64,000 nucleotides of DNA from Streptomyces ferrugineus (GTDB taxonomy: Bacteria; Actinomycetota; Actinomycetes; Streptomycetales; Streptomycetaceae), in contig NZ_CP063373.1 in NCBI RefSeq assembly GCF_015160855.1, positions 6,200,001-6,264,000 on the forward strand, given 5' to 3'. A program made the translations under genes and the position numbers. The notes beneath the pieces were generated by a model, which saw only the letters and a program-made list of their open reading frames with translations, ran no database searches and was not told where the DNA came from. Positions 19,676 through 62,814 of this stretch are shown here, in pieces. The first letter of the stretch is position 1. Every line of letters starts with the position of its first letter.

Positions 19676-19689
19676 GGGCCGATCGGCCC
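19676..19689. promoter_or_regulatory. GGGCCG palindrome (putative OsdR box), perfect copy
   Basis: GGGCCGATCGGCCC, flanked as A...T to give a 16-bp palindrome. A half-conserved copy (GGGCCGACCCGGTG) lies 31 bp to the left at 19645. It sits in the 545-bp gap 19482-20026, which otherwise holds no convincing gene. It is 195 bp before the kinase at 19481 and 338 bp before the small gene at 20027, so its target is unclear. Confidence 0.55.
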
Positions 19690-20026
19690 TGTCGCGGGCG
19701 TGGTCCTCGTGGTGTGCTGGATGTGACGGGAAGGACCCGACAGGACGCGGGGCAGCGGCTCTGGGACGCTCACCGCGCAATCAGGATCCGCGAGAAGCGG
19801 GTGACGTCCTTCCCGTCCCCGCCCTTTCCATTCCCGCGCCCTCAAGCGCATCGCACCCCCTGTCGGCGTGGACACGCCATGGGCCGAAGGCCCCGGAACG
19901 CCTCCACGCGGTCTCCCCGGCACAGGGCGCGTGGCCTGTCCGGCAGGGCCCTGGAGGGGCTGCCGAGCGCGATGCGCGCAGGAGCGGGCCGGGGGTGCGA
20001 GGGGAGCTTCGGGGAGGGGAGAGGTC

Positions 20027-20161
20027 ATGGCGTCCGCGACCGCCAAGGTCGGCCAGGACACCGTGACGATGGTCGTCCGTCTCCCTGGACGGCCCGTTCG
20101 CGGCAAGGGCGACCAGCTGCGCGTCACCGTCCTCCCGGAGGCTGCCACCGGCGACGGCTGA
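20027..20161 (+). CDS. Small protein, 44 residues
   Basis: An ATG with a strong purine-rich ribosome binding site (GGGGAGGGGAGAGG) opens a 44-codon frame starting MASATAKVGQDTVTMVV and ending in TGA. The sequence is basic with alternating hydrophobic residues, consistent with a small beta-rich protein. No family is recognised. It is supported by its start site and position only. Confidence 0.45.
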   Translation: MASATAKVGQDTVTMVVRLPGRPVRGKGDQLRVTVLPEAATGDG

Positions 20162-20223
20162 GGTACCGTGGCGCCCCCGGATCGGGGCGAGAGACCTCCG
20201 CCTCGCGGACCGTCCGGTCCCCG

Positions 20224-20835
20224 TCAGCCGAACATCCGCTTCCTCCACCGCGGGCCGACCCGCTCCCACTCCTCGGCCCACTCCGCCATACGCCTCCGGA
20301 CCAACCGACCGCGCACGAGCCATGTGCACGTCAGCGCACCCGCTCCGGCGCCCGCCGTGGCCAGGACACCGGCCAGTGCCGCCTGGAGCCGTGCCTGTGT
20401 CGCCGAGGCCGGTTCGGCGACCAGCGCGCCCGTGCGGTCGGTCCACACGGGGACCGCGGAGCCCGCCGTCGTGCCGGGATCGGCCTTCGCCCGGCCCGTG
20501 TGCGCCGACCCGTCGGCGGCGGTCCAGCGCACCTTCACCCACACCCGGTCGTCACCGGTCTCGACCGCCGCCAGGGAGGAGTCCGCCGACGCGTCCTGGG
20601 TCAGTACGGCCGAGACGGGGTGCGCCTCCGCGCGCCGTGCCGCGAGGGTGTGGTCCACCGATGCCGCCACCGCCTGCCCCGCGAGCAGGCCGCCGATCAG
20701 GGCGACCGTCCAGCCGACGAGCACGATCCAGGCCTCGACCACGTCGCTGCGGCGCCGCAGGGGGTTGCGCCGCCACCGCCAGAGCCCCAACCTCGGCGGC
20801 CGTGTGCGAGGTGGCGTCCGACGCTCTTCCGCCAT
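20224..20835 (-). CDS. Rv1733c-family membrane protein
   Basis: This 203-residue protein starts with an Arg-rich cytoplasmic segment containing WRWRRNPLRRRSDVVEAW. A helix (IVLVGWTVALIGGLLAGQAV), an external domain of about 85 residues (VKVRWTAADGSAHTG and VPVWTDRTG) and a second helix (AGVLATAGAGAGALTC) follow. This layout and the NPL-R-x-D-x-x-EA signature match M. tuberculosis Rv1733c, a member of the DosR dormancy regulon. The function is unknown. It is the last gene of a run that begins with the transhydrogenase genes. A paralogue lies at 35931. Confidence 0.85.
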   Translation of the reverse strand: MAEERRTPPRTRPPRLGLWRWRRNPLRRRSDVVEAWIVLVGWTVALIGGLLAGQAVAASVDHTLAARRAEAHPVSAVLTQDASADSSLAAVETGDDRVWVKVRWTAADGSAHTGRAKADPGTTAGSAVPVWTDRTGALVAEPASATQARLQAALAGVLATAGAGAGALTCTWLVRGRLVRRRMAEWAEEWERVGPRWRKRMFG

Positions 20836-20857
20836 GGGTCGACACCCCCTTTCGGTG

Positions 20858-21247
20858 TCAGGAGGCCTTTCGGCCCCCGGCGGCCCGGGACGTCTCTTCG
20901 GCGTCCGAGAGGTTCGGGCGCAGGGACGGGCCCATGAGCGCGCAGGCCACGTCCACCACCCCCTCCACGGCTCGCGTCAGGCGCTTGGCGACCGGCACGA
21001 GCATGGTGTCCGGGATTCGGCCGGTGAGGGTGACGACACCGGCCCGCACCTCCACCCGGATCGGCCAGAGCGGCTCCGGGAACAGAGAGGAGACGACCTC
21101 CCGGCGTACCTCCTCGGCGATGTCCTCGTCGTCCCGCAGGAACACCTTGAGCAGATCCGGTTCATCGCAGCCTCCTTCGCCCCTTCCAGCCAACGCCCGC
21201 GCACCGGTGCTCCCCAAGTGCCGTATGGTCCCTGGCAGGTGGGCCAT
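20858..21247 (-). CDS. BON-domain protein, probably a truncated CBS-BON protein
   Basis: The recognisable part starts at about residue 30 (DLLKVFLRDDEDIAEEVRREVV) and runs through a BON domain (PIRVEVRAGVVTLTGRIPD, then VKRLTRAVEGVVDV-like AKRLTRAVEGVVDVACAL). In Streptomyces CBS-BON proteins the segment DLLKVFLR joins the second CBS domain to BON. Here the 28 residues before it do not look like CBS sequence, so the paired CBS domains appear lost. The only ATG lies inside an inverted repeat (21219-21253) and lacks a ribosome binding site, so expression is doubtful. Confidence 0.6.
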   Translation of the reverse strand: MAHLPGTIRHLGSTGARALAGRGEGGCDEPDLLKVFLRDDEDIAEEVRREVVSSLFPEPLWPIRVEVRAGVVTLTGRIPDTMLVPVAKRLTRAVEGVVDVACALMGPSLRPNLSDAEETSRAAGGRKAS

Positions 21248-28560: not shown

Positions 28561-28574
28561 GTGCCGAACGTCCC
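28561..28574. promoter_or_regulatory. Putative OsdR box, variant copy
   Basis: GTGCCGAACGTCCC matches the palindrome GGGCCG-NN-CGGCCC at 10 of 12 fixed positions. It lies 69 bp before the GAF regulator start. Confidence 0.45.
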
Positions 28575-28863: not shown

Positions 28864-28898
28864 GGACCGAACGGCCCTACCGGGGTCCTGACCGGCCC
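28864..28898. promoter_or_regulatory. Tandem putative OsdR boxes
   Basis: GGACCGAACGGCCC (28864-28877) and GTCCTGACCGGCCC (28885-28898) have identical right halves placed exactly 21 bp apart. They lie immediately after the histidine kinase stop codon, about 370 bp upstream of the GAF regulator start. They may serve a distant promoter for the GAF regulator or an unseen small transcript. Confidence 0.45.
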
Positions 28899-28907
28899 AT
28901 GCGGGCC

Positions 28908-30671
28908 CTACCGCTCCCCCACCGGCACCCGCCACACCAGCGTCGTGCCGCCACCGGCGGGGCAGTCCACCCGCAGCGCGCCACCCAACTGCGCGGCGCG
29001 TTCCGCCATGTTGCGCAGGCCACTGCGGCGGCCGTCGGCAGGGATGCCCACGCCGGTGTCGGAGACGGTCAGGCGCACCTCCCTGCCGTCGGTCTCGAGT
29101 ACGACCTCGGCGCGGTCCGCGTGGGCGTGGCGGGCGACGTTGGTCAGGGCCTCGGAGAGGACGGCCACCACATGGTCGGCGACCTCCTTGGGCACGTGGG
29201 TGTCCAGCAGACCTTCCATCCGCACGCCGGGCGCGAAGCCCAGCACCGGTGCGGCCTCGCCGACCACGCGCACCGCACGGGCCCGCAGGCCGGGGCCGCC
29301 CGCGCCCTCGCGTTCCCGCAGCCCGAAGATGGTCGACCGGATGATCTTGATGGTCTCGTCCAGGTCCTCCACCGCCCGTGCGACGCGGTCCGAGGCCTGC
29401 TGGTGCTCGATGAACCGCCCGGCGCTCTGCAGCGTCATCCCCGTGGCGAACAGCCGCTGGATCGCCAGGTCGTGCAGGTCGCGGGCGATGCGGTCGCGGT
29501 CCTGGAGCACCGCGATCCGCTCCGCGTCCGCGCGGCGCTCGGCCAGTTCCATCGCGACCGCGGCCTGGGCGGCGAAACCCCGCAGCGGCTCGGTCTCCCG
29601 CTCGGCGAACACCGGCTGGTCCACCGCCCGCACGAGCAGCACGACACCCCTCAGTCCCTCGCCGGCGCCGATGGGCACCGCCACGGCCGGCCCCAGGCCG
29701 GTGAAGCGCCGCGAACCCGGGGCGGCCTTGCCCGGCCCTTCGGCCGGGCGGCTCCACGTCTCGCTCCGCTCGTCCTCGGAGATGTCCGGGCTGGAGACCA
29801 GCGTGGCGTCCGCGAAGGCCTTGCCGATCAGGCTGCCGTCCACGGGCAGGACCAGACCCCGGTGCGCCTCCGCCTCGCGCCCGATGGCCAGTTCCACGGT
29901 CAGCGAGTCGGTGCCCTCCATGGGCACCGCGACCACGGCGAGGGCCGCGCCGGTGATCTCCCGGGCCCGTTCGGCGATCAGCCCGAGGACCTCGCCGCGG
30001 TCGCTGCCGGACATCAGACTGTGCGTGATCTCGGCGCTCGCCCGCAGCCAGCGCTCGCGCAGCCGGGACTCCTCGTACAGACGGGCGTTGTCGATCGCCA
30101 CACCGGCCGCCACGGCCAGGGTGGACAGCACCGACTCGTCCTCCTCGTCGAACTGCGCCCCGCCCCGCTTCTCGGTCAGGTAGAGGTTGCCGAAGACCTG
30201 GTCCCGGACCCGGATCGGAACGCCGAGGAAGGAGTTCATCGGGGGATGGTGCGCCGGGAAGCCGTACGAGGCCGGGTGCTCGGAGAGCCTGGTCAGCCGC
30301 AGCGGCTCGGGATGGCGGATCAGCTCGCCGAGGATGCCGTGCCCCTCCGGGTAGTGGCCGATCTTCGCGGCCTGTTCCTCGGTGACGCCGACCGTGAGGA
30401 AGTCCGCGATCCCCTTGCCGTCGGGGCCGATCACGCCGAGCGCGGCGTACTGCGCGTCGACCAGCGCCGCCGCGGCCTCGACGATGCTCTTCAGCGCCTG
30501 CTCCAGGTCCAGCTCCCGGCCGACCGAGAGCACCGCCTCCAGCAGGCTGTGCACCCGGTCGCGGGTGCCCCGGGCCGCGTCCAGCCGGGCCTGCAGCTCC
30601 TCCAGCAACTCGTCCAGCCTGAGCTGCGGCAGCCGTACGCGGGCCTCCCCGGACTCCTCGGAGCTTCCCAC
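28908..30671 (-). CDS. osdK: DevS/OsdK-like GAF-GAF sensor histidine kinase
   Basis: This cytoplasmic kinase has two GAF domains (about residues 35-185 and 205-360), an H-box RDRIARDLHDLAIQRLF with the phospho-acceptor His, and a HATPase domain (SEALTNVARHAHA; DTGVGIP; GLRNMAERA). GAF-A contains LSEHPASYGFPAHHPPMNSF, then FGNLYLTEK, almost the same as the haem pocket of mycobacterial DosS, including the HPPM His that ligates haem there. It is thus a candidate O2/NO/CO or redox sensor. GTG 30671 is chosen because GGAGG lies seven bases upstream; ATG 30722 lacks one. The response regulator gene is 131 bp upstream on the same strand. Confidence 0.9.
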   Translation of the reverse strand: MGSSEESGEARVRLPQLRLDELLEELQARLDAARGTRDRVHSLLEAVLSVGRELDLEQALKSIVEAAAALVDAQYAALGVIGPDGKGIADFLTVGVTEEQAAKIGHYPEGHGILGELIRHPEPLRLTRLSEHPASYGFPAHHPPMNSFLGVPIRVRDQVFGNLYLTEKRGGAQFDEEDESVLSTLAVAAGVAIDNARLYEESRLRERWLRASAEITHSLMSGSDRGEVLGLIAERAREITGAALAVVAVPMEGTDSLTVELAIGREAEAHRGLVLPVDGSLIGKAFADATLVSSPDISEDERSETWSRPAEGPGKAAPGSRRFTGLGPAVAVPIGAGEGLRGVVLLVRAVDQPVFAERETEPLRGFAAQAAVAMELAERRADAERIAVLQDRDRIARDLHDLAIQRLFATGMTLQSAGRFIEHQQASDRVARAVEDLDETIKIIRSTIFGLREREGAGGPGLRARAVRVVGEAAPVLGFAPGVRMEGLLDTHVPKEVADHVVAVLSEALTNVARHAHADRAEVVLETDGREVRLTVSDTGVGIPADGRRSGLRNMAERAAQLGGALRVDCPAGGGTTLVWRVPVGER

Positions 30672-30801: not shown

Positions 30802-31494
30802 TCAGTGGCCGTCCTGCTTGAGCCTGTCGCGGGCCTGGGTGGCGATCACCGCGGCCTGGATGCGCCGCTCCACGCCGAGCTTGGCCAGCAGGCGGGAGAT
30901 GTGGTTCTTGACCGTCTTCTCCGCCAAGAAGAGGCGCTGCCCGATCTGCCGGTTGGTCAGCCCTTCTCCGATCAGCTCCAGGATCTCCCGCTCCCGGTCG
31001 GTCAGTCCCGGCAGGGCGTCCGGCTCCTCCTCCTTCTGCTCCCCCTCGCGCAACCGGGCCATCAGCTTGGTGGTGGCGCTCGGGTCGAGCAGCGACTGGC
31101 CGCGGGCCACCGTGCGCACGGCCGCCACCAGGTCGGATCCCTGGATCTGCTTCAGCACGTATCCGGACGCCCCGGCCATGATCGAGTCCAGCAGGGCCTC
31201 CTCGTCGTCGAACGAGGTCAGCATCAGGCACGCCAGGTCGGGCAGTCGCGAGCGCAGCTCGCGGCACACGGTCACACCGTCGCCGTCCGGCAGTCGGACA
31301 TCGAGCACCGCGACCTGCGGGCGCAGGGCGGGGACGCGGACGAGTGCCTGCTCGGCGGTGGCGGCCTCGCCGACCACGCTGATGTCCGGTTCGTCGTTCA
31401 GCAGGTCGTGCACCCCCCGCCGTACCACCTCGTGGTCGTCCAGCAGGAAGACCCGGATCGGGTTGCCGGGGTCGGCCTGCTCGCTGTCAGCCAT
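30802..31494 (-). CDS. osdR: DevR/OsdR-like response regulator
   Basis: This 230-residue NarL-family regulator has a receiver domain ([13 protein letters not shown]; Asp in [26 protein letters not shown]) and a LuxR HTH ([21 protein letters not shown]; recognition helix [16 protein letters not shown]). The recognition helix keeps the Lys and Asn residues that contact the DosR box in M. tuberculosis DosR. It is the presumed partner of the kinase at 28908 and the best candidate to bind the GGGCCG palindromes scattered through this island, one of which lies 112 bp upstream. ATG 31494 has AAGGAG eight bases before it. Confidence 0.93.
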
Positions 31495-31591: not shown

Positions 31592-31619
31592 GGGCCGAAA
31601 GACCAGGGCCGGTCGGCCC
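31592..31619. promoter_or_regulatory. Putative OsdR boxes upstream of osdR
   Basis: GGGCCGGTCGGCCC (31606-31619) is a perfect palindrome. A second left half (GGGCCGAAAGACCA) starts 14 bp away at 31592. They lie 98-126 bp before the osdR start, which suggests autoregulation. Confidence 0.55.
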
Positions 31620-32348: not shown

Positions 32349-32384
32349 GGGCCGCGCGGCCCGCGGGAAGGGGCCGAACGTCCC
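32349..32384. promoter_or_regulatory. Tandem putative OsdR boxes upstream of the DoxX gene
   Basis: GGGCCGCGCGGCCC (32349-32362, perfect) and GGGCCGAACGTCCC (32371-32384, one mismatch) are 22 bp apart start to start, placed on the same face of the helix. They lie 89-124 bp before the start at 32260. Confidence 0.6.
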
Positions 32385-32947: not shown

Positions 32948-33003
32948 GGGCCGTGAGTCCCGGCCCTGACGGCGAGCGGCCCTGCGGCAGGGACGTCTGT
33001 CCC
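32948..33003. promoter_or_regulatory. Putative OsdR box array with 21-bp phasing
   Basis: GGGCCGTGAGTCCC (32948-32961) and GGGACGTCTGTCCC (32990-33003) are separated by 42 bp (two times 21), with a half site ACGGCGAGCGGCCC at exactly the midpoint (32969-32982). The variants AGTCCC and GGGACG move toward the mycobacterial GGGACT box. The array is 72 bp before the PPOX start at 32876. Confidence 0.5.
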
Positions 33004-34572: not shown

Positions 34573-34586
34573 GGGCCGACCGGCCC
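34573..34586. promoter_or_regulatory. Putative OsdR box, perfect copy
   Basis: GGGCCGACCGGCCC lies 111 bp upstream of the HTH-PPOX gene and 33 bp beyond the end of the nitroreductase gene at 34619. Confidence 0.6.
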
Positions 34587-38485: not shown

Positions 38486-38499
38486 GGGCCGACCGGCCC
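38486..38499. promoter_or_regulatory. Putative OsdR box, perfect copy
   Basis: GGGCCGACCGGCCC, extended to the 16-bp palindrome AGGGCCGACCGGCCCT, lies 128 bp upstream of the gene at 38627, which is coupled to a PPOX gene. Confidence 0.6.
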
Positions 38500-45746: not shown

Positions 45747-45760
45747 GGGCCGAACGGCCC
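45747..45760. promoter_or_regulatory. Putative OsdR box, perfect copy
   Basis: GGGCCGAACGGCCC, within AGGGCCGAACGGCCCT, lies 99 bp upstream of the PPOX gene at 45859 and faces the boxes of the divergent ctaD. Confidence 0.6.
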
Positions 45761-46542: not shown

Positions 46543-47016
46543 TCACGGCGAGGGCTGCGGCAGCCGGTTGCCGGCGCGGGCGCGGACCGCCTCGACGGCC
46601 TCCCACTGTTCGGGGTCCAGCAGGGCCAGTGCGGCGGGGAAGACGCCGTCCTGCTCCTTGAGGATGTGCTCGCGCAGCAGGCCGAGCGTCTCGATCAGCC
46701 GGCCGGGCCAGGTGGGATCGGCCAGGAACGGTCCGTCGGCCTCGGCCAGCACGGCCTCGATCCTGCGGTGCTCGGCCTCCAGTGCGGCGATCTTCTCGGG
46801 GAACTCGGCGGCCATCACCGGGAACAGGCCCTGCTCCTCGACCTGGGTGTGCGGGCCGAGGACGGCGGCGATCTCCCGGGCCAGCTGCGCCATGCGTGTG
46901 ACCTCGCCGTCGCGGTGGGCGTCGCGGACGTGGCTGATGAGGTGGACGACCCTCTCGTGCTCCATGGTCAGCTCGTCGATCGTTTCCAGCGCCTGGCAGC
47001 CGCAGTACTCGCACAT
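46543..47016 (-). CDS. Hemerythrin-domain (HHE) protein
   Basis: This 157-residue helical protein has the iron ligands expected for hemerythrin: MEHERVVHLISHVRDAH, LGPHTQVEEQGLFP, EAEHRRIEAVL and LREHILKEQDGVFP. The N-terminus carries CEYCGC, a Cys cluster that could bind a metal or act as a redox switch. Likely roles are O2 or NO binding or iron handling. It lies 21 bases after the narK stop, so the two share a transcript under OsdR-type boxes. Confidence 0.9.
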   Translation of the reverse strand: MCEYCGCQALETIDELTMEHERVVHLISHVRDAHRDGEVTRMAQLAREIAAVLGPHTQVEEQGLFPVMAAEFPEKIAALEAEHRRIEAVLAEADGPFLADPTWPGRLIETLGLLREHILKEQDGVFPAALALLDPEQWEAVEAVRARAGNRLPQPSP

Positions 47017-47037
47017 CGCGGGACTCTCCTTGCCTGG

Positions 47038-48285
47038 TCAGTGCGGTTGGGTGGCGAGGACGCGGCGGGTGCGGGTGACCGCGTGGCGTACGCCGGTGCC
47101 GGTGAAGGCCAGGGCCGCGGCCGCGACGACGGCCAGCAGGGCCAGGCCGATCGCGTAGCTGCCGTACGCGCCGTACAGCGAGCCCATCACCAGCGGCGGG
47201 ACGAACCCGCCCAGTCCGCCGGCGGCGCCGACGACGCCGGTGACGGAGCCGACCTTGTCGGCCGGGGCCAGCAGGGCCACCAGGGCGAACACGGCTCCGC
47301 TGCCCGCGCCGAGCGCGCCGGCCATGGCGAGGCAGGCGATGGTGCCGACCGGTGCCAGGGACGGGGTGAAGGACTGCGCGAACGCCCCCGCGAGCACCAC
47401 GCCCAGCGATCCGGTGAGCACCCGGACCGGCCCGATGCGGTCCGACAGCCAGCCGCCGACCGGCCGCATGGCCACCGCGAGCAGCACGAAGCCGGCCATG
47501 CGGTTGGCCGCGTCGGCCTGGGTGAGGCCGTAGCCGGTCTTGAGGTAGGTGGGCAGGTAGACCGAGAAGGCGACGTAGCCGCCGAAGGCCACCGCGTAGA
47601 GCGCGGACGCCTGCCAGGTGACGCCGAGGCGCAGGGTGGCGGTCAGCCGGTGGGCCAGCGGCTCGGTGGGCACCTGGCGGCCGGGCGCGTCACGCAGGAC
47701 GAGCGCGGCCACGACCGCGTACGCGGCCAGGACGGCGGCGGTGATCAGGAACGGGTTGGCCATGCCATGGGCGTCGACCAGCTTGACCGTGGTCAGGGCG
47801 CTGATCGCAGTGCCGCCCATGCCGGCGCCGAAGATCCCGATCGCCAGACCTCGCCGCTCGGGCGGGAACCAGGCGCTGACGAAGGGCACGCCGACCGCGA
47901 ACGCGGTGCCCCCGATGCCGAGGAAGAAGCCGCCGGCCAGCAGCGCCGCCAGCGAGGAGTGACCGGCCAGGCCGAGGTAGAGGACGGGCACGATGGTGGC
48001 GGCCGAGACGAGCGGGAACATCACCCGGCCGCCGAACCGGTCGGTCAGCGCCCCGACCGGGATCCGGCCCAGCGAGCCGACGACCACCGGCACCGCCACC
48101 AGCAGGGACTGCTGGAACGAGCTCAGGTCCAGGCTGTCCTTGAACCTGGGGCCGAGGGGGCTGAGCAGCGCCCAGGCCCAGAAGTTGAGGGCGAAGCCGA
48201 CCGTGGCCAGCGTCAACATCAGCCAGGCCCGCCCGGACACGGACGCCACCGGTGCGCCGCTGTGGTTTCTCGACGGCTGAAGCAT
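47038..48285 (-). CDS. narK: NarK-family nitrate/nitrite transporter
   Basis: This 415-residue MFS protein has about 12 helices and the NarK signature regions GSLGRIPVGALTDRFGGRVMF (first), GIGGTAFAVGVPFVSAWFPPE and GVVGAAGGLGGFVPP (nitrate signature). It imports nitrate or exports nitrite for the nar system encoded at 54665-61407. ATG 48285 is preferred because GGAAGGGA is eight bases upstream; ATG 48303 is possible. Box variants at 48338 and 48416 lie upstream. Confidence 0.93.
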   Translation of the reverse strand: MLQPSRNHSGAPVASVSGRAWLMLTLATVGFALNFWAWALLSPLGPRFKDSLDLSSFQQSLLVAVPVVVGSLGRIPVGALTDRFGGRVMFPLVSAATIVPVLYLGLAGHSSLAALLAGGFFLGIGGTAFAVGVPFVSAWFPPERRGLAIGIFGAGMGGTAISALTTVKLVDAHGMANPFLITAAVLAAYAVVAALVLRDAPGRQVPTEPLAHRLTATLRLGVTWQASALYAVAFGGYVAFSVYLPTYLKTGYGLTQADAANRMAGFVLLAVAMRPVGGWLSDRIGPVRVLTGSLGVVLAGAFAQSFTPSLAPVGTIACLAMAGALGAGSGAVFALVALLAPADKVGSVTGVVGAAGGLGGFVPPLVMGSLYGAYGSYAIGLALLAVVAAAALAFTGTGVRHAVTRTRRVLATQPH

Positions 48286-48480: not shown

Positions 48481-48494
48481 GGGCCGTCCGGCCC
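48481..48494. promoter_or_regulatory. Putative OsdR box, perfect copy
   Basis: GGGCCGTCCGGCCC, within AGGGCCGTCCGGCCCT, is only 36 bp upstream of the PPOX start at 48531. A degenerate partner GCCCCGGCCGTCCA begins 21 bp later (48502). Confidence 0.6.
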
Positions 48495-54250: not shown

Positions 54251-54558
54251 CGGCCCGCCCTCCGCCCCACCTGGGTGCGCGGCGTGCGTCCGGCCGCCCG
54301 GGAGACAGGGCAGATGCGACGGGCGGCCGGACGGTGACGGAACCGGCCCGTGCACGGCACCCGCGACGGGGGACGGGGATGGAGACAGCCGCGCGGGTGC
54401 TCGGTGCGGTCGTACACGGGTTACCTCCGGATCGGTCACTGGTCAGCCTGGGGCAAGGGGCGGGGGCGGCGCGGCGGCCGGTGGGCCCTTGTGCGGGGGC
54501 CAGAAGTCCCTCGTCGCGGCAGGCGTGGCCCGGCAACAGCCGTCCGACGGCCGCCACC

Positions 54559-54612: not shown

Positions 54613-54626
54613 GGGCCGTTCGGCCC
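54613..54626. promoter_or_regulatory. Putative OsdR box upstream of narG, perfect copy
   Basis: GGGCCGTTCGGCCC ends 38 bp before the narG start codon. A left half AGGCCGGAAGGACG sits 22 bp upstream (54591). Confidence 0.65.
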
Positions 54627-54664: not shown

Positions 54665-57600
54665 ATGGAGAACGACGACAACGCACGACAGGGACTGTCG
54701 GGCGCCGCGCACGCCTGGCCGCTGGCCGCCCGGCGCCTGCTCACCCGCCGTGAGATCTCGGCCGACGGGCGCGCGGTGTTCGGCGCGAACGACGGCAAGT
54801 GGGAGGGCTTCTACCGGGACCGGTGGGCGCACGACAAGGTGGTGCGCTCCACGCACGGTGTGAACTGCACCGGTTCCTGCTCGTGGATGGTGTACGTCAA
54901 GGACGGCATCATCACGTGGGAGCACCAGGCCACCGACTACCCGTCGATCGGCGCGGACTGCCCGGAGTACGAACCGCGGGGCTGCCCGCGCGGGGCGTCC
55001 TTCTCCTGGTACACCTACTCCCCCAGCCGGGTCCGCTACCCCTATGTGCGGGGCGCGCTGCTGAAGCTGTGGCGCGAGGCCCGCAGGCGGCTGGGCGACC
55101 CGGTGGCCGCCTGGGCCGAGATCACGTCCGATCCGGCCAAGGCGCGGGCCTACAAGCGGGCCCGCGGCAAGGGCGGTCTGGTGCGCGCCGACTGGGACGA
55201 GGTCAGCGAGCTGATCGCCGCCGCCCAGGTGCACACCGTCAAGGCGTACGGCCCCGACCGCGTCGCGGGCTTCTCGCCGATCCCGGCGATGTCGATGGCG
55301 TCGTTCGCGGCCGGGGCGCGCTTTCACTCGCTGATCGGCGGCACCCTGCTGTCGTTCTACGACTGGTATGCCGATCTGCCGATCGCCTCACCGCAGGTGT
55401 TCGGCGACCAGACGGACGTCCCCGAGGCCGCGGACTGGTGGAACGCGGGCTATCTGATCATGTGGGGCTCCAACATCCCCGTTACCCGCACGCCCGACGC
55501 CCACTTCCTCACCGAGACCCGCTACAACGGCACCAAGGTCGTCGCGGTCAGCCCCGACTACGCCGACAACGTCAAGCACGCCGACGAGTGGCTCGCCCCG
55601 CACCCCGGCACCGACGGGGCGCTGGCGATGGCGATGGGGCATGTGATCCTGCGCGAGTTCCTCGTCGAGCGCGAAGTGCCGTACTTCCAGGACTACCTGC
55701 GCAGGTTCACCGACGCCCCGTTCCTGGTGAGCCTGCGCGAGCGCGCCGGGAGCGGCCTCGTCCCGGACGGGTTCCTGACCGCCGCCGACCTCGGACGCGA
55801 CACGGAGCACGCCGAGTCCAAGACGGTGCTTCTCGACTCGGCCACCGGCGAACCGGTGGTGCCGAACGGCTCGCTCGGCTTCCGCTGGGGGGAGGCCGAG
55901 CCCGGCCGCTGGAACCTCGACCTGGGCGGCGTCGTGCCCGAGTTGAGCCTGTTCGACCGTGCGGAGGAGACCGTGGCCGTGGCGCTGCCCCGCTTCGACG
56001 AGGGCGGCACGGAGGGCGGCTCGGTCATGGTGCGCGGGGTCCCGGTGCGCAGGATCGGCGGGCGGCTCGTCACCACGGTGTTCGATCTGATGCTGGCGCA
56101 GTACGGAGTGCGGCGGCCGGGTCTGCCGGGCAGTTGGCCGTCGTCGTACGAGGACGCGTCGGAGCCCTGCACCCCCGCCTGGCAGGAGACGATCACCTCG
56201 GTGCCGGCCGCGCAGGCGGCCCGCATCGCCCGGGAGTTCGCCCGCAACGCCGAGCAGACCCGGGGCCGTTCGATGATCGCGCTGGGCGCCGGCACCAACC
56301 ACTGGTTCCACTCGGACACCATCTACCGTGCCTTCCTCGCCCTGGTGACGATGACCGGCTGCCAGGGTGTCAACGGCGGCGGTTGGGCGCACTACGTCGG
56401 CCAGGAGAAGGTCCGCCCGGTCACCGGTCAGCAGCACCTGTCGTTCGCGTTCGACTGGCAGCGGCCCACCCGGCACATGGCGGGCACCTCTTACTGGTAC
56501 CTGAACTCGGACCAGTGGCGCTACGAGGCGTTCGGGCCCGACGAGCTGGCGTCCCCGCTCGGGGAGGGGCGGTTCGCGGGCAAGGGGTTCGCCGACTGCC
56601 TCGCCCAGGCCGTGCGGCTGGGCTGGACGCCCGGCCACCCCGGCTTCAACCGCAACCCGCTGGATCTGACGGACGAGGCGCGGGCCCAGGGCAAGCAGGT
56701 CGCCGAGCACGTCGTCGACGAGCTGAAGTCGGGGCGGCTGCGGTTCGCCGTCGAGGACCCGGACGACCCGGCCAACTTCCCGCGCGTGCTGACCGTGTGG
56801 CGGGCGAACCTGCTGGGCTCGTCCGGCAAGGGCAACGAGTACTTCCTGCGCCATCTGCTGGGCACGGACGCGGCGGTCCGCTCGGAGGAGACACCGCCGC
56901 AGGGGCGCCCCAAGGACGTGGTGTGGCGGGAGGAGGCGCCCGAGGGCAAGCTCGACCTGCTGGTCTGCATGGACTTCCGGATGACCTCGACCGGTCTGAT
57001 GGCTGACGTGGTCCTGCCGGCGGCGACCTGGTACGAGAAGGACGACCTGTCCAGCACGGACATGCACCCCTTCGTGCACGCCTTCACCCCGGCCATCGCC
57101 CCGCCCTGGCAGGCGCGCACCGACTACGACACCTTCCTGACCATCGCCGACCGGTTCAGCGAACTGGCCGCCGAGCACCTGGGCACCCGCACCGACGTCC
57201 TGGCCGTGCCGCTGCTGCACGACACCCCCGACGAACTCGCCCAGCCCGGCGGGGTCGTACGGGACTGGAAGGACGGCGCGTGCGAACCGGTTCCGGGCCG
57301 GACCATGCCGAAGCTGGCCGTCATCGAGCGGGACTACGCCGCGATCGCGCAGAAGATGCGCGCCGTCGGCCCTCTGCTGGACACCCTGGGCACCACCACC
57401 AAGGGTGTCTCGGTCCAGGTGGGCCCGGAGATCGATGACCTCCGGCGCCGCAACGGCACCGTCAGGGACGGAGTCGCCGCCGGGCGCCCCTCCCTGGCCA
57501 CCGCCTCCGACATGTGCGAGGCGATCCTCGCCCTGTCCGGCACCACCAACGGCCGTCTGGCCACCGAGGGCTTCCGCGAGATGGAGCGCAGGACCGGCAG

Positions 57601-58363
57601 CGAGGGGCTGGTGGACCTGGCCGCCGAGCGGGAGGCCGAGCGGATCACCTTCGCCGACACCCGCACCCAGCCGCGCTCGGTGATGACCTCCTACGAGTGG
57701 TCGGGCTCGGAGACGGGCGGGCGCCGCTACTCGCCGTTCGTCATCAACACCGAGCACCTCAAGCCCTGGCACACCCTCACCGGCCGGCAGCACTTCTTCG
57801 TCCAGCACGACTGGATCGCCGAACTCGGTGAGCAACTGCCGGTCTACCGGCCGCCGTTGAACACACCCCGGCACTACGGCAACGAAGAACTCGGCGGCGA
57901 GCGCGCCGAAGTCACGGTCAGGTATCTGACCCCGCACTCGAAGTGGTCCATCCACTCGAACTACCAGGACAACAAGTACATGCTCGACCTGTCCCGCGGC
58001 GGTCCCACGATCTGGATGTCCCTGGAGGACGCCGAGAAGATCGGCGTCAAGGACAACGAGTGGATCGAGGCCTACAACCGCAACGGCGTCGTCGCCGCCC
58101 GCGCCGTGGTCACCCACCGCATGCCCGAGGGCACCGTGTACATGTACCACGCCCAGGACCGCAACGTGAACGTCCCGAAGACCGAGGTCAGCGGCAAGCG
58201 GGGAGGAATCCACAACTCGCTCACCCGGCTGCTGCTCAAGCCCACCCATCTCGCGGGCGGCTACGCCCAGTTCACCTACGCCTTCAACTACTACGGCCCG
58301 ACCGGCAACCAGCGCGACGAGGTCACCGTCATCCGCCGCCGCAGCCAGCAAGTGGAGTACTGA
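54665..58363 (+). CDS. narG: Respiratory nitrate reductase alpha subunit
   Basis: This 1232-residue molybdopterin enzyme has the NarG FS0 cluster site HGVNCTGSCSWMVYVKDG and CPEYEPRGCPRGASFSW, the active-site region YDWYADLPIASPQVFGDQTD, and WGSNIPVTRTPDAHF, all characteristic of membrane-bound cytoplasmic-side nitrate reductases. No Tat signal is seen apart from the usual vestigial RR region (AARRLLTRREIS). It is the first gene of narGHJI; narH begins one base after its stop. The length is normal. Confidence 0.97.
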   Translation: MENDDNARQGLSGAAHAWPLAARRLLTRREISADGRAVFGANDGKWEGFYRDRWAHDKVVRSTHGVNCTGSCSWMVYVKDGIITWEHQATDYPSIGADCPEYEPRGCPRGASFSWYTYSPSRVRYPYVRGALLKLWREARRRLGDPVAAWAEITSDPAKARAYKRARGKGGLVRADWDEVSELIAAAQVHTVKAYGPDRVAGFSPIPAMSMASFAAGARFHSLIGGTLLSFYDWYADLPIASPQVFGDQTDVPEAADWWNAGYLIMWGSNIPVTRTPDAHFLTETRYNGTKVVAVSPDYADNVKHADEWLAPHPGTDGALAMAMGHVILREFLVEREVPYFQDYLRRFTDAPFLVSLRERAGSGLVPDGFLTAADLGRDTEHAESKTVLLDSATGEPVVPNGSLGFRWGEAEPGRWNLDLGGVVPELSLFDRAEETVAVALPRFDEGGTEGGSVMVRGVPVRRIGGRLVTTVFDLMLAQYGVRRPGLPGSWPSSYEDASEPCTPAWQETITSVPAAQAARIAREFARNAEQTRGRSMIALGAGTNHWFHSDTIYRAFLALVTMTGCQGVNGGGWAHYVGQEKVRPVTGQQHLSFAFDWQRPTRHMAGTSYWYLNSDQWRYEAFGPDELASPLGEGRFAGKGFADCLAQAVRLGWTPGHPGFNRNPLDLTDEARAQGKQVAEHVVDELKSGRLRFAVEDPDDPANFPRVLTVWRANLLGSSGKGNEYFLRHLLGTDAAVRSEETPPQGRPKDVVWREEAPEGKLDLLVCMDFRMTSTGLMADVVLPAATWYEKDDLSSTDMHPFVHAFTPAIAPPWQARTDYDTFLTIADRFSELAAEHLGTRTDVLAVPLLHDTPDELAQPGGVVRDWKDGACEPVPGRTMPKLAVIERDYAAIAQKMRAVGPLLDTLGTTTKGVSVQVGPEIDDLRRRNGTVRDGVAAGRPSLATASDMCEAILALSGTTNGRLATEGFREMERRTGSEGLVDLAAEREAERITFADTRTQPRSVMTSYEWSGSETGGRRYSPFVINTEHLKPWHTLTGRQHFFVQHDWIAELGEQLPVYRPPLNTPRHYGNEELGGERAEVTVRYLTPHSKWSIHSNYQDNKYMLDLSRGGPTIWMSLEDAEKIGVKDNEWIEAYNRNGVVAARAVVTHRMPEGTVYMYHAQDRNVNVPKTEVSGKRGGIHNSLTRLLLKPTHLAGGYAQFTYAFNYYGPTGNQRDEVTVIRRRSQQVEY

Positions 58364-58364
58364 C

Positions 58365-59900
58365 ATGCGCGTCATGGCACAGATCGCGATGGTGATGAAC
58401 CTCGACAAGTGCATCGGCTGCCACACCTGCTCCGTCACCTGCAAGCAGACGTGGACCAACCGCACCGGCGTCGAGTACGCCTGGTTCAACAACGTGGAGA
58501 CCAAGCCCGGCGTCGGCTACCCCCGCCGCTACGAGGACCAGCAGCAGTGGAAGGGCGGCTGGATGCTCGACAAGCGCGGACGCCTCGTCCTGCGTTCCGG
58601 GGGCCGCATCAAGCGCCTGCTGTCGCTGTTCTCCAACCCCGACCTGCCCGGCATCGAGGACTACTACGAGCCGGTCACCTACGACTACGACAACCTCGTC
58701 AGCGCCCCCGCCCAGAAGGACATCCCGGTCGCCCGCCCGCGCTCGGTCCTCACCGGCCGGCCCACCGCCATCACCTGGGGCGCCAACTGGGAGGACGGCC
58801 TGGGCGGCGCGCCCGAGAACGCCGGCGGCGACCCCAATCTCAGCGGCGAGTGGGCACAGAAGGTCAAGTTCGAGTTCGAGCAGACCTTCCTCTTCCACCT
58901 GCCCCGTCTGTGCGAGCACTGCCTCAACCCGGCCTGCGTCTCCGCCTGTCCGTCCGGCGCGATGTACAAGCGGGTCGAGGACGGCATCGTCCTCGTCGAC
59001 CAGGACCGCTGCCGGGGCTGGCGGATGTGCGTGACGGCGTGTCCGTACAAGAAGGTGTACGTCAACCACGCCACCGGCAAGGCCGAGAAGTGCACCTTCT
59101 GCTTCCCGCGCATCGAGGCCGGGCAGCCGACGGTCTGCTCGGAGACCTGTGTGGGTCGGCTGCGCTACCTGGGGTTGATGCTGTACGACGCCGACCGCGT
59201 CGGCGAGGCGGCCGCCACCCCGGACGAAGCGGACCTCCTCGACGCCCAGCGCGGTGTCTTCCTCGACCCGCACGACCCCGACGTCATCGCCGCGGCAAGG
59301 GAGTCCGGGATCCCGGAGGACTGGCTGGACGCCGCCCGCCGCTCCCCGGTGTACGACCTGGTCATGCGCTACAAGGTGGCGCTGCCGCTGCACCCGGAGT
59401 ACCGGACGATGCCGATGGTCTGGTACGTCCCGCCGCTCTCCCCCGTTCTCGACGCCGTCGACGCGGCCGGCGGCAACCAGGACGACCCCGACCACGTCTT
59501 CGCCGCCGTCACCCGGCTGCGCATCCCGCTGGAGTACCTGGCCGAGCTGTTCACCGCCGGGGACACCGACGTCGTCGCCGGTGTGCTGATGAAGCTCACC
59601 GCGCTCCGCTCGTACATGCGCGAACGCACCCTCGGACACGAGGGCGACGACTCCGCGCTCGAGGCGGTCGGCCTCACCGGGCGTGAGGCCGAGGACCTGC
59701 ACCGGCTCCTCGCCGTCGCCAAGTACGCCGACCGGTACGTCGTCCCCGCCGCCCACAAGGAGGACGCCGCCGCGCTCACCGCGATGGAGAACCGCTGCCC
59801 GGTCGAATCCTCCGTCCCCGACGAGCCCCGCAAGGTCATGCTCGGCATCCCCACCCTGCGCCGCCGTACGTCCGACACCCCTGCCGGAGGCCCCCTGTGA
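58365..59900 (+). CDS. narH: Respiratory nitrate reductase beta subunit
   Basis: This 511-residue iron-sulfur subunit has four Cys clusters. The first is CIGCHTCSVTCKQ; then CEHCLNPACVSACPSG, CRGWRMCVTACPYKK (the Trp variant giving the 3Fe-4S centre) and CTFCFPRIEAGQP with CSETCVG. It passes electrons from NarI to NarG. ATG 58365 has GTGGAG seven bases upstream, inside the end of narG. It overlaps narJ as GTGA. Confidence 0.97.
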   Translation: MRVMAQIAMVMNLDKCIGCHTCSVTCKQTWTNRTGVEYAWFNNVETKPGVGYPRRYEDQQQWKGGWMLDKRGRLVLRSGGRIKRLLSLFSNPDLPGIEDYYEPVTYDYDNLVSAPAQKDIPVARPRSVLTGRPTAITWGANWEDGLGGAPENAGGDPNLSGEWAQKVKFEFEQTFLFHLPRLCEHCLNPACVSACPSGAMYKRVEDGIVLVDQDRCRGWRMCVTACPYKKVYVNHATGKAEKCTFCFPRIEAGQPTVCSETCVGRLRYLGLMLYDADRVGEAAATPDEADLLDAQRGVFLDPHDPDVIAAARESGIPEDWLDAARRSPVYDLVMRYKVALPLHPEYRTMPMVWYVPPLSPVLDAVDAAGGNQDDPDHVFAAVTRLRIPLEYLAELFTAGDTDVVAGVLMKLTALRSYMRERTLGHEGDDSALEAVGLTGREAEDLHRLLAVAKYADRYVVPAAHKEDAAALTAMENRCPVESSVPDEPRKVMLGIPTLRRRTSDTPAGGPL

Positions 59901-60676
59901 GCCCGCTGCCAGCGACGATCCCCGCCCTCGTCCGCACCCGCGTCCGCGCGGCCGTACGCCGCCCGGCCCGCCTCACGCCCGAGGAGGCCGAGGCGCGCAC
60001 CCTGCTGCTGCGGCTGTGCTCGCTGCTGCTGCAGTACCCGGACGCCGACCTCGCCGCCGCCCGGCCGGTGCTCACCAGCAGCGTCGCCGCGCTGCCGCCC
60101 TCCCCCGCCGCCAGGCAACTCGCCGCCTTCACCGACTGGTTCACCCGGCAGGAGACGGACGCGCTGGAGCGGCACTACGTCGAGATGTTCGACCTGCGCC
60201 GCAAGAGCAGCCTGTACCTGACCTACTACCTGCACGGCGACACCCGCCGCCGCGGCATGGCCCTGCTCACCCTGGCCCAGCGCTACCGCGCCGCCGGCTG
60301 GGACACCGACGGCGGCGAACTGCCCGACCACCTCCCGGTCGTCCTCGAGTTCGCCGCCCTCACCGGACCGGGGCGCGGCGAGGCGCCGCTGCGCCAGCAC
60401 CGGCGCGGGCTCGAACTCATCCACCGCGCCCTCACCGACGCCGACTCCCCCTACCGGCATGTCCTCGCCGCGCTGATCACCCTGCTGCCGCCGCCGACCG
60501 AGGCGGATCTGCTCGCCGTGGCCGAACTGGCCGCCCAGGGCCCGCCGAACGAGGAAGTCGGCCTCGACCCGTACGGGGCGGGCGAGTTCGCGCCGCCGGG
60601 GGCCTTCGTCCCGCCCGAGCAGGCCCCGCCCACCCTCGCCCGACCGGCCGAGACGCACCGTCAGGAAGACCGCTGA
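59897..60676 (+). CDS. narJ: Nitrate reductase assembly chaperone
   Basis: This 259-residue helical protein of the TorD/NarJ type has LRLCSLLLQYPDADL near the start, HYVEMFDLRRKSSLYLTYYLHGDTRRRG (the conserved core) and LPVVLEFAAL. It holds NarG for molybdenum-cofactor insertion. GTG 59897 overlaps narH and its stop overlaps the narI ATG (TGATG). The long Pro-rich tail is variable in the family. Confidence 0.95.
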   Translation: MSPLPATIPALVRTRVRAAVRRPARLTPEEAEARTLLLRLCSLLLQYPDADLAAARPVLTSSVAALPPSPAARQLAAFTDWFTRQETDALERHYVEMFDLRRKSSLYLTYYLHGDTRRRGMALLTLAQRYRAAGWDTDGGELPDHLPVVLEFAALTGPGRGEAPLRQHRRGLELIHRALTDADSPYRHVLAALITLLPPPTEADLLAVAELAAQGPPNEEVGLDPYGAGEFAPPGAFVPPEQAPPTLARPAETHRQEDR

Positions 60677-61407
60677 TGAACACCTCCGCAGCCGACCTCC
60701 TCCTCTGGGTCGCCGTCCCCTACATCTGCCTGGCCGTGTTCGCCGTCGGGCACGTCTGGCGCTATCGCCAGGACCAGTTCGGCTGGACCTCCCGCACCAG
60801 CCAGCTCCTGGAGCACCGCTGGCTGCGCTTCGGCAGCCCGCTGTTCCACCTCGGCGCCTTCATGGTGATCGCCGGGCACGTCGTGGGGCTCGCCGTCCCC
60901 GACTCGTGGACCGAGGCCGTCGGCATCAGCGAGCACGCCTACCACACCACCGCCGTGTGGGCGGGTTCGGTGGCGGGCGTCGCCATGGTCGCGGGGCTGG
61001 GCATGCTGTGCGCGCGCCGTCTGCTGACCCGGCGGATCCGGCTCGGCACCGACCGCAGCGACAAGCTCCTCTTCCCGCTGCTGTCCGCCACCGTGCTGCT
61101 CGGCATCACCGCCACCTTCGCCCACAACGTCTTCGGCGACGGCTACGACTACCGCTCCACCGTCTCGGTCTGGTTCCGCGGCCTGTTCACCCTCCAGCCG
61201 CAGCCGGAGGCGATCAGCGGCGCACCCCTGCTGTTCCAACTGCACGCCCTGACCGCGTTCCTCCTGTTCGCGGCCTGGCCGTTCACCCGTCTCGTCCACG
61301 TGTGGAGCGCCCCCGTCGGCTACCTCGCCCGCCCTTACCTCGTCTACCGGCGCCGGGCGACCACGCCGGCCCCGGCGCGGCGCGACAGGGTGCGGGCCGA
61401 AGGCTGA
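60676..61407 (+). CDS. narI: Respiratory nitrate reductase gamma subunit (cytochrome b)
   Basis: This 243-residue protein has five helices and the two haem-b His pairs placed in VGHVWRYRQDQFGW, LFHLGAFMVIAGHVVGL and LHALTAFLLFAAWPFTRLVHVW. It oxidises menaquinol and delivers electrons to NarH. It closes the narGHJI operon and is followed six bases later by a strong terminator. Confidence 0.96.
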   Translation: MNTSAADLLLWVAVPYICLAVFAVGHVWRYRQDQFGWTSRTSQLLEHRWLRFGSPLFHLGAFMVIAGHVVGLAVPDSWTEAVGISEHAYHTTAVWAGSVAGVAMVAGLGMLCARRLLTRRIRLGTDRSDKLLFPLLSATVLLGITATFAHNVFGDGYDYRSTVSVWFRGLFTLQPQPEAISGAPLLFQLHALTAFLLFAAWPFTRLVHVWSAPVGYLARPYLVYRRRATTPAPARRDRVRAEG

Positions 61408-61412
61408 GAAAA

Positions 61413-61448
61413 ACACCCCGGCCCCCGCGATCGCGGGGGCCGGGGTGT
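61413..61448. terminator. Bidirectional terminator between narI and hmp
   Basis: An uninterrupted 36-bp palindrome: the arm 61413-61430 (ACACCCCGGCCCCCGCGA) is followed immediately by its exact complement (61431-61448). An A-run precedes it on the plus strand, giving U-tract character for the minus-strand hmp transcript. Confidence 0.85.
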
Positions 61449-61466
61449 GCGGGCCGGGACTCGGGC

Positions 61467-62672
61467 TCAGTCCTCCGCGTGGGCCAGCCACAGGTCGGGG
61501 CCGAAGACCTCGTAGCGGATGTGGCGGGCGGGGATGCCGGCCCGCAGCAGTTGGGTGCGCACCGCGCGCATGAAGGGCAGCGAGCCGCACAGGTAGACGT
61601 CGGAGTCGGCGGGCAGGTCGACGTCGTCGAGGTCCATCAGGCCGGCCCGGGCGCCCGGTTCGTCGGCCGCGTTCTGCTCATACCAGAACTGGGCGCGGGC
61701 GCCCGGCAGTTCCTCCAGGGCGCGGTCCGTGTCGGCGCGCAGCGCGTGGTCGGCCGGGGAGCGGTCGGCGTGCAGGACCCACACCGTGCGGGTGGCGCCG
61801 GTGGCCGCGAGGTGTTCGAGCATGCCGACCATCGGGGTGCAGCCGATGCCCGCCGACACCAGCAGCAGCGGGGTGTCGGCGTCGTCGAGCACCACGTCGC
61901 CGAAGGGTGCCGACAGGGTGAGTTCGTCGCCGGCCCGGACGGTGCGGTGGAGCTGGTTGGACACCTCGCCCTCGGGGGCGTCGGCGACGCTCGCGACCCG
62001 CTTGACGGTGATGCGCCGCAGCCCGTCGCCGGGCGCGTTGGACAGGCTGTACTGGCGGGTCTGGTGGATGCCGTCCGGCATGGGCACCCGGACGCTGACG
62101 TACTGGCCTGCGCGGGCCGCGGGCAGGGGGGTGCCGTCGGCCGGGCGCAGCAGGAAGGAGGCCACGTCCGGGGTTTCCTCCCGCCGCTCGACCACGGTCC
62201 ACCGCCGCCACGGTTTGCGGGGATCGACCTGCGCCTCCTGGTAGAGGCGGGCCTCGCGGGCGATGAGGGCACCGGCCATCAGCCAGTACACCTCGTCCCA
62301 GGCTGCGGCCACCTCGGGGGTGACCGCCTCGCCCAGTACGTCGCCGATGGCGCGGAAAAGGTACTTGTGGACGATCGTGTACTGGTCCTCGGTGACGCCG
62401 AGCGCGGCGTGCTTGTGGGCGATCCTCGCCAGCAGCGCGTCCGGGCGGGCGTCGGGGTCGGCCAGCAGCGCCTGTGCGAAGCCCGCTATGGATCCGGCCA
62501 GGGCCCGGCGCTGCTCGCCGCTGGCCTGGTTGCCGCGGTTGAACAGCCCGTCCAGCAGCTCGGGCTGCTCGGCGAACATGACGCCGTAGAAGCGTGCCGT
62601 GATCTCGTCGAGGGCGCCGCCGACGGCGGGCAGGGTGGCGCGCACGACGGCGGCCGACTCGGGCGAAAGCAT
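61467..62672 (-). CDS. hmp: Flavohaemoglobin (nitric oxide dioxygenase type)
   Basis: This 401-residue protein joins a globin domain (residues 1-140) to FAD- and NAD-binding reductase domains (GQYVSVRV, RQYSLSNAP, AGIGCTPMVGML, YLCGSLPFM). It should convert NO to nitrate, protecting against NO made by nitrate/nitrite reduction. Oddly, where E. coli Hmp has its proximal haem ligand (IVGEHLL) this protein reads IVHKYLF: Tyr at the ligand position and His two residues earlier. B10 Tyr (RFYGVMF) and E7 Gln appear kept. ATG 62672 has AGGGAGA upstream. Confidence 0.92.
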   Translation of the reverse strand: MLSPESAAVVRATLPAVGGALDEITARFYGVMFAEQPELLDGLFNRGNQASGEQRRALAGSIAGFAQALLADPDARPDALLARIAHKHAALGVTEDQYTIVHKYLFRAIGDVLGEAVTPEVAAAWDEVYWLMAGALIAREARLYQEAQVDPRKPWRRWTVVERREETPDVASFLLRPADGTPLPAARAGQYVSVRVPMPDGIHQTRQYSLSNAPGDGLRRITVKRVASVADAPEGEVSNQLHRTVRAGDELTLSAPFGDVVLDDADTPLLLVSAGIGCTPMVGMLEHLAATGATRTVWVLHADRSPADHALRADTDRALEELPGARAQFWYEQNAADEPGARAGLMDLDDVDLPADSDVYLCGSLPFMRAVRTQLLRAGIPARHIRYEVFGPDLWLAHAED

Positions 62673-62731
62673 GAATCTCCCTTTGCAGGTGCGGGTGTGC
62701 CGGGGTGTGCACAGCCGGGCGCCGTCCGGCG

Positions 62732-62814
62732 GGTCCGGTCGGCCCACCGATCGTCGCGGTGACGCCGCCGGCTCCCATAGGGCCGAACAGCCCGAAGGAA
62801 GGGCCCATCGGTCC
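62732..62814. promoter_or_regulatory. Putative OsdR boxes upstream of hmp
   Basis: GGTCCGGTCGGCCC (62732), GGGCCGAACAGCCC (62780) and GGGCCCATCGGTCC (62801). The last two are exactly 21 bp apart. They lie 60-142 bp before the hmp start. Confidence 0.6.

Follow-up and report, generated by a model that had tools for sequence, protein, structure and literature searches.

A probable OsdR operator and its predicted regulon in two islands of the Streptomyces ferrugineus genome

The osdR-osdK locus

The stretch of DNA analyzed here, called the window hereafter, comprises bases 6200001-6264000 (64 kb) of the single 9.96 Mb contig of Streptomyces ferrugineus, a genome with a guanine-plus-cytosine (GC) content of 70-73%. 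In this window, the gene for the response regulator OsdR, an orthologue of mycobacterial DosR (DevR), adjoins osdK, the gene for a sensor kinase, and nar2, narK-hemerythrin, PPOX and nitroreductase genes are found nearby, which is the layout of an OsdR regulon. The palindrome GGGCCG-NN-CGGCCC recurs between these genes. It is almost certainly the operator of OsdR, through which OsdK and OsdR would adjust respiratory, nitric oxide (NO)-handling and stress genes in two genomic islands.

The osdR product contains a receiver domain and a LuxR-type helix-turn-helix (HTH), and its best sequence match in the PDB is DevR (3c3w, 267 bits). Its recognition region reads KTVKNH..RRIQ. In DosR numbering, which was taken from the peptide 175-188 in PMC5861037, the contact residues Lys179, Lys182 and Asn183 of DosR (PMC4082495, PMC5861037) are all kept in OsdR, as had been predicted. 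The GAF domain of OsdK matches the structures of DosT (2vzw) and DevS, and the motifs GFPxHHPPM (GFPAHHPPM in OsdK1) and LYLTEK, seen in the DosT GAF domain upon alignment, are retained by both OsdK copies in the genome (see below). Judged by its sequence, OsdK is a probable partner kinase with a GAF domain of the DevS/DosT type. The system thereby resembles the DosR/DevR regulon of M. tuberculosis, with which it shares an orthologous regulator, a DevS/DosT-like kinase, a palindrome of 6+2+6 architecture and the presence of neighboring boxes.

For OsdR of S. coelicolor (SCO0204), the consensus AGGGCCGATCGGCCCT was published in 2016 together with gel shifts, and single-base changes weaken the binding (PMC5069765). 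The predicted targets include osdR itself and nitroreductase, PPOX, narK-hemerythrin and narGHJI genes, and DNA binding was demonstrated to be raised by phosphorylation (PMC5069765). Others have reported that OsdR of S. coelicolor is phosphorylated by OsdK. Recombinant DevR (SCO0204) also binds the upstream region of narG2, the transcripts of which drop in the absence of SCO0204 (PMC4766573). The palindrome in the window equals the published consensus, and a copy lies upstream of osdR, which supports the original prediction that it is the binding site of OsdR. As many of these targets had already been published along with the consensus and the gel shifts, the finding is a rediscovery in another genome. 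It confirms, by sequence alone, the low-oxygen OsdR regulon, which is not new, as a predicted regulon of another Streptomyces, where it extends over two islands. Consensus, osdR box and the nar2, narK-hemerythrin, PPOX, nitroreductase and universal stress protein (USP) targets are all shared with S. coelicolor.

Number and placement of the palindromes

Eight perfect copies are present at the predicted positions (the entries marked perfect in Table 1), and there is no ninth in the 64-kb window. Their rarity by chance had been estimated at 0.3 copies per 64 kb; perfect copies are indeed rare, but the figure from 100 dinucleotide shuffles of the window is lower (mean 0.15, maximum 2). All eight lie outside the genes, as called by codon usage without outside annotation. 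With a coding share of 88.7% between positions 19000 and 64000, such placement has a chance probability of ~3e-8. Among 50 palindromic arms consisting of G and C only, GGGCCG ranks first in the window with eight copies, the runner-up having two. The same ranking was made in the best 80 of 555 candidate loci round OsdR orthologues in named genomes (1.52 Mb; called the relatives hereafter), where GGGCCG has 137 copies and the runner-up 24. When the spacer was varied from 0 to 8 in these loci, enrichment was seen only at 2 (137 copies), the other spacers yielding 2-15. Counting of sites with up to two mismatches proved a poor separator (77 in the window vs. a shuffle mean of 56.9, standard deviation 7.6, largest 75) and was abandoned.

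Chance or structural repeats, such as terminator hairpins or a product of composition, could be considered for such a sequence in a genome of this GC content, in which the reversed control still has 28 copies. However, the shuffles, the 50 control arms, the spacer test and the intergenic placement all speak against such an origin, as does the lack of a run of four T after any of the 15 boxes checked, and we regard it as practically negligible.

A palindromic scoring matrix was built from 306 intergenic sites in the relatives' loci, with 0 sites coming from the S. ferrugineus genome. A free-running expectation-maximization motif drifted to a GC-rich background pattern and was dropped; therefore, rounds with a fixed threshold were used instead. 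The consensus of the matrix is roughly A-GGG-(C/a)-C-G-N-N-C-G-(G/t)-CCC-T. At a threshold of at least 8 bits, 22 sites were found in the window, of which 20 are intergenic and two coding. The former comprise seven perfect copies and 13 variants, close to the about 15 variants initially proposed. The eighth perfect copy, at 32349, has a central CG, which is rare in the family, and scores below this threshold; its neighbor at 32371 is the better site. With at least 14 bits, the window has 14 intergenic and no coding sites, whereas 20 stretches of 20 kb from this genome (400 kb in all) contain two and one, respectively. Thus, sites resembling AGGGCCGATCGGCCCT are found in the window both by exact search and with the matrix.

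Table 1. Genes and predicted OsdR boxes in the window (positions are those of the window; scores from the matrix built on relatives)
Feature	Position	Strand	Domains, score and context
perfect box	19676..19689	.	23.9 bits; 195 bp upstream of Ser/Thr kinase gene
box GTGCCGAACGTCCC	28561..28574	.	10.7 bits; upstream of GAF gene 27170-28492
box GGACCGAACGGCCC	28864..28877	.	17.8 bits; between osdK and GAF gene 27170-28492
osdK, sensor kinase with GAF domains	28908..30671	-	Pfam GAF, HisKA_3, HATPase_c
osdR, response regulator, DosR orthologue	30802..31494	-	Pfam Response_reg, GerE
perfect box	31606..31619	.	19.7 bits; upstream of osdR
perfect copy, central CG	32349..32362	.	below 8 bits
box GGGCCGAACGTCCC	32371..32384	.	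20.5 bits; upstream of DoxX-like gene; 22 bp from 32349
box GGGACGTCTGTCCC	32990..33003	.	10.6 bits; upstream of PPOX gene 32436-32918
perfect box	34573..34586	.	18.7 bits; upstream of HTH-PPOX gene 33761-34462
box GGGCCGATGGTCCC	35689..35702	.	17.5 bits; between nitroreductase 34619-35611 and gene 35931-36500
weak box	35798..35811	.	9.1 bits; between nitroreductase 34619-35611 and gene 35931-36500
perfect box	38486..38499	.	22.4 bits; upstream of genes 38639-39549 (second: PPOX)
ctaD-like oxidase subunit I	43805..45394	-	Pfam COX1
box	45634..45647	.	14.9 bits; between ctaD and PPOX
box GGGACCAACGGCCC	45667..45680	.	17.2 bits; 33 bp from box 45634
perfect box	45747..45760	.	23.5 bits; between ctaD and PPOX
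MFS transporter (narK-like) and hemerythrin	46543..48249	-	Pfam MFS_1, Hemerythrin
perfect box	48481..48494	.	19.9 bits; between narK-hemerythrin and PPOX
weak box	54475..54488	.	8.3 bits; between radical SAM gene and narG
weak box	54497..54510	.	8.4 bits; 22 bp from box 54475
perfect box	54613..54626	.	20.2 bits; upstream of narGHJI
narGHJI, four genes	54665..61407	+	Pfam Molybdopterin, Nitr_red_bet_C, Nitrate_red_del, Nitrate_red_gam
hmp, flavohaemoglobin	61467..62672	-	Pfam Globin, FAD_binding_6, NAD_binding_1
box	62732..62745	.	10.8 bits; upstream of hmp
box	62780..62793	.	14.7 bits; upstream of hmp
box	62801..62814	.	14.7 bits; upstream of hmp; 21 bp from box 62780

The second island and the three regulators

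In the whole genome, 39 perfect copies are found vs. 28 of the reversed control. Eight of them are in the window, nine in a second island at 5840-5879 kb, 0.34 Mb away, and 22 are scattered. Two of the copies in island 2, which are also the two coding sites among its matrix hits of at least 14 bits (the other eight being intergenic), were first called inside a dehydrogenase gene, but the gene caller had set the start too far upstream. Since the ADH domain begins at residue 91 and an ATG at codon 67 is preceded by AGGGAAGG, both boxes are placed upstream of the gene, and all nine copies are intergenic.

Unlike S. coelicolor, as far as its published regulon goes, S. ferrugineus has three OsdR and two OsdK genes, distributed over two boxed islands. 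OsdR1 is encoded in the window, OsdR2 (89% identity) at 5875 kb and OsdR3 (75%) at 5849 kb; OsdK2 (82% identity to OsdK1) is encoded at 5872 kb. In island 2 (5.84-5.88 Mb), a USP gene is followed on the same strand by osdR2, a gene for GAPDH and osdK2, and a perfect box precedes the USP gene. Likewise, devR of M. tuberculosis has a USP gene, Rv3134c, upstream of it (PMC5069765). Further USPs, a phosphoketolase, a 2-oxoacid oxidoreductase, two cyclic nucleotide (cNMP)-binding proteins and a zinc dehydrogenase are also encoded in this island. We infer that the OsdR proteins of S. ferrugineus bind the predicted sites and that all three copies share the boxes.

Among the scattered copies, one at 7382835 is intergenic, between a gene of the amine oxidase family and a DUF4349 gene. 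It is placed like the SCO6041/SCO6040 target of S. coelicolor, which was gel-shifted (PMC5069765); that the same genes are involved is suggested by annotation only. A perfect intergenic box at genome position 7126096, between divergent genes for PAS-GAF-SpoIIE phosphatases, marks another candidate target of OsdR, and one at 9248651 lies between genes for a sensor kinase and a LuxR-type response regulator.

Conservation of the boxes and weighing of the evidence

For each target, we counted in how many of the relatives possessing a homologue (45% identity or more) a box scoring 10 bits or higher is located within 350 bp. Homologues were sought within the 80 loci, i.e., near osdR, so that those of the PPOX and nitroreductase genes may be paralogues, and boxes between divergent genes were counted for both genes. 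Against a background of 10 boxed genes out of 367, osdR has a box of its own in 68 of 79 relatives, and hmp in 16 of the 17 that carry it near osdR. Boxes are also conserved for ctaD (4/4), narG (5/7), the DoxX-like gene (9/12) and the four PPOX genes (16/20, 31/39, 21/23 and 18/35). The label DoxX is weak (17.9 bits vs. a cut-off of 23.6). Thus, conservation supports osdR, hmp, ctaD, narG and most PPOX genes among the proposed targets, but is weak or absent for narK and the nitroreductases (see below). As to the proposal that most of the region is one regulon, some of its genes have no conserved box, and the second island belongs to the regulon as well.

The palindromes might chiefly serve a different regulator encoded in the region, such as a CRP-like protein, an ArsR or a NarL-type regulator; the cNMP-binding proteins of island 2 and an ArsR encoded at 37611 would be candidates. 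This is very unlikely, considering the published gel shifts with OsdR (PMC5069765), the box upstream of osdR itself in most relatives, the fact that the type of box follows the OsdR clade (see below), and a copy number that tracks OsdR across 150 genomes of the genus, S. ferrugineus included. An OsdR-like protein is found at E ≤1e-80 in 136 of these genomes, 83 of which have two or more, the distant paralogue included. Because the plain 14-mer is inconspicuous genome-wide, the pattern AGGGCCGNNCGGCCC was used in this comparison. Counted on both strands, it averages 12.3 copies in genomes with a close OsdR (E <1e-90, n=104), 7.8 in those with a distant one only (n=32) and 6.4 in those without OsdR at E 1e-80 (n=14; one has a match at 1.3e-71). 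The close group differs from the group without OsdR (p=3e-5) and from the distant group (p=9e-6), whereas the reversed control pattern shows no difference in either comparison (p=0.47 and 0.19, respectively).

Several results weigh against assigning the palindrome and its targets to OsdR. Of the 22 perfect copies outside both islands, only seven are intergenic and 15 lie inside genes; thus, perfect identity by itself does not make a site reliable. In the genus, AGGGCCGNNCGGCCC stays below the reversed control in all groups (ratio 0.88 with close, 0.62 with distant and 0.50 without OsdR), so that the argument is one of contrast between groups, and the cut between close and distant at E=1e-90 was chosen after the table had been seen. 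Furthermore, box conservation among the relatives' homologues is weak for narK (1/3), the third nitroreductase (3/9), the HTH-PPOX gene (3/14) and osdK (6/52), and the other two nitroreductases are boxed in none of 14 relatives each.

Helical phasing of neighboring boxes

Nearby boxes tend to keep helical phase. Among intergenic boxes in the relatives, pairs were formed of one with at least 12 bits and another with at least 6 bits, and 82 such pairs are 15-95 bp apart. The full-turn bins hold 24 (20-24 bp), 8 (30-34), 8 (40-44), 9 (50-54), 4 (60-64) and 6 pairs (70-74), whereas the half-turn bins from 15-19 to 75-79 bp hold 1, 2, 0, 3, 2, 2 and 3; no contrast is seen beyond 80 bp. The phasing has R=0.40 at 10.5 bp, with the best period at ~10-10.25 bp, and after removal of similar pairs it persists in the remaining 71 (p ~1e-4). 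Against it, one of 60 column-permuted control matrices gave a stronger signal than the real matrix; therefore, the evidence is good but not overwhelming. In the window, the neighbor distances of 21, 22, 22 and 33 bp fit the phasing, whereas those of 48 and 80 bp do not.

DevR binds cooperatively to a strong site and a weak one next to it (PMC3029386), and the phasing fits such a mode of binding, by analogy. In the proposed mechanism, OsdK would sense low oxygen or NO and phosphorylate OsdR. The OsdR dimer would place one recognition helix on each GGGCCG half-site, and neighboring dimers on the same helical face would cooperate. Thereby, the transcription of nitrate respiration, oxidase, NO-removal, redox enzyme and stress genes could be adjusted in both islands.

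A proposed shift of the half-site relative to DosR

The half-site of mycobacterial DosR is GGGACT. It is not the main half-site in the S. ferrugineus loci, and the boxes are therefore assigned to OsdR, as an orthologue with a shifted box, and not called DosR boxes. OsdR differs from DosR of M. tuberculosis not only in its half-site, GGGCCG instead of GGGACT, but also at residue 184, which is His or Asn instead of Tyr, and at residue 198, which is Ile or Val instead of Thr. This holds for the 80 relatives and the three S. ferrugineus copies (called H/N loci; one locus unread at residue 198). In 40 other loci, Tyr184 occurs with Thr198, except for Ser or Ala at position 198 in seven Streptomyces paralogues (one locus unread at this position). 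When 80 sequences, 40 of each kind, were placed in a tree, the H/N set was set apart by a branch supported at 100/100, the bootstrap not being fully settled.

All 80 relatives are filed under genera of the Streptomycetaceae, except for one on a 4.4-kb contig of Actinomadura logoneensis. The OsdR encoded there is 90% identical to that of the window, which may reflect contamination or transfer.

Box types differ along the same division. Of the intergenic half-sites GGGxCy in the H/N loci, 414 of 736 have CG at the variable positions and 83 have AC; in the 33 Y184/T198 loci, the corresponding numbers are 10 and 36 of 108, with another 12 having AT (4 of 14 in the five loci designated f4). Perfect palindromes with GGGCCG arms number 137 in the H/N loci but are absent from the 618 kb of Y184/T198 loci, whereas those with GGGACC arms number 0 and 5, respectively. 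In the seven Streptomyces Y184-paralogue loci, none of the five perfect palindromes counted is present. The claim that variants bridge the DosR and OsdR boxes is correct insofar as such variants occur, but the box types are largely split by clade.

It could be argued that GGGCCG merely reflects GC drift of one site, read by an unchanged protein. OsdR binds mycobacterial DevR promoters in vitro (PMC5069765), so that its specificity is not exclusive and the change is one of preference at most, and GGGAC variants are present in the window too (32990, 45667). However, at equal mean GC (0.724 in both sets), the 18 Y184/T198 loci with a GC of at least 0.70 still favor GGGAC, with 7 CG vs. 27 AC/AT half-sites against 414 vs. 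88 in the H/N loci (Fisher 9e-14, half-sites not being independent). With loci as units, A is the majority at position 4 in 19 of 25 Y184/T198 loci (those of the 33 with data) vs. 2 of 80 H/N loci, and the contrast persists in the high-GC subset (14 loci, p=8e-6). Thus, GC drift alone is an improbable explanation.

A real shift of the box also has evidence against it. The core GGG.C....G.CCC occurs only 0 to 4 times per locus in the first 20 Y184 loci, mostly below the mean of nine control arms; hence, the box of the Y184 group rests on its intergenic placement and a few perfect copies only. Moreover, 71 of 83 H/N loci have an exact core in front of the regulator gene, compared with just 11 of 28 other Y184/T198 loci and one of the five f4 loci.

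Together, these data suggest that the Streptomyces family reads another version of the site than its relatives. We infer that the substitutions Y184H/N and T198I/V are linked to the altered half-site, but as both residues changed once, in one clade, this is a single event, and other changes specific to the clade could be responsible. OsdR is reported to keep 11 of 13 DNA-binding residues (PMC5069765), and Thr198 of DosR is a phosphosite of PknH (PMC12919924). The pair of phosphosites Thr198 and Thr205 is not found in S. ferrugineus: at position 198, OsdR1 and OsdR2 have Ile and OsdR3 has Val, whilst residue 205 is Thr, Ser and Thr in OsdR1, OsdR2 and OsdR3, respectively, so that OsdR1 and OsdR3 retain a single site of the pair. 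Tentatively, and with somewhat more doubt than conviction, we propose one shift in DNA preference at the base of the OsdR clade of the Streptomycetaceae. Residue 184, beside the base-contacting Asn183, and residue 198 would have changed once, the half-site of the regulon would have moved from GGGAC(C/T) to GGGCCG, the restraint by a kinase acting on Thr198 would have been lost, and the older Y184 paralogue, retained by some Streptomyces genomes, would be separate from the regulon. The comparison offers a testable case, with two candidate residues, of a concerted change in a regulator and the operators of its entire regulon. A search of open-access papers turned up no account of the box shift or of several OsdR copies.

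The seven paralogues just mentioned, found in other Streptomyces, are distant and DosR-like, with Tyr184 and mostly Ser198. An imperfect element, GTGACAGGTGCCCC, lies upstream of the gene in 7/7, and their 20-kb stretches contain no perfect palindrome of the OsdR type.

The flavohaemoglobin and nitrate reductase genes

In S. coelicolor, Nar is under the control of DevSR (OsdKR) and the flavohaemoglobin Fhb (hmp) under that of NsrR; NO inhibits DevSR and derepresses hmp through NsrR (PMC4766573). As in S. coelicolor, nitrate reductase and flavohaemoglobin constitute a source and a sink of NO in S. ferrugineus. In contrast, hmp adjoins narGHJI here and carries three predicted OsdR boxes, whereas it is absent from the targets in Table 1 of PMC5069765. 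Source and sink may thus move together, and both Nar and Hmp may answer to OsdR in S. ferrugineus. This predicts that the producer and the remover of NO can share one regulator, unlike in the account for S. coelicolor.

Other genes in the window

The best-scoring box in the window lies upstream of a gene for a Ser/Thr protein kinase (17577-19481), of which no homologue (at least 45% identity) is found in the 80 relatives' loci. As PknH, which acts on mycobacterial DosR, is also a Ser/Thr kinase, a link between this kinase and OsdR is possible.

Between a nitroreductase gene and narG (50430-54250), an 867-amino-acid multicopper-oxidase-like protein and a radical SAM protein are encoded. Their best box within 350 bp has 8.4 bits, and a distance of 363 bp separates the radical SAM gene from the perfect box at 54613. 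Furthermore, six Pyridox_ox_2 (PPOX-like) genes are present within ~17 kb, at 32436, 33761, 39121, 40838, 45859 and 48531, and five of them are located behind OsdR boxes, directly or as the second gene.

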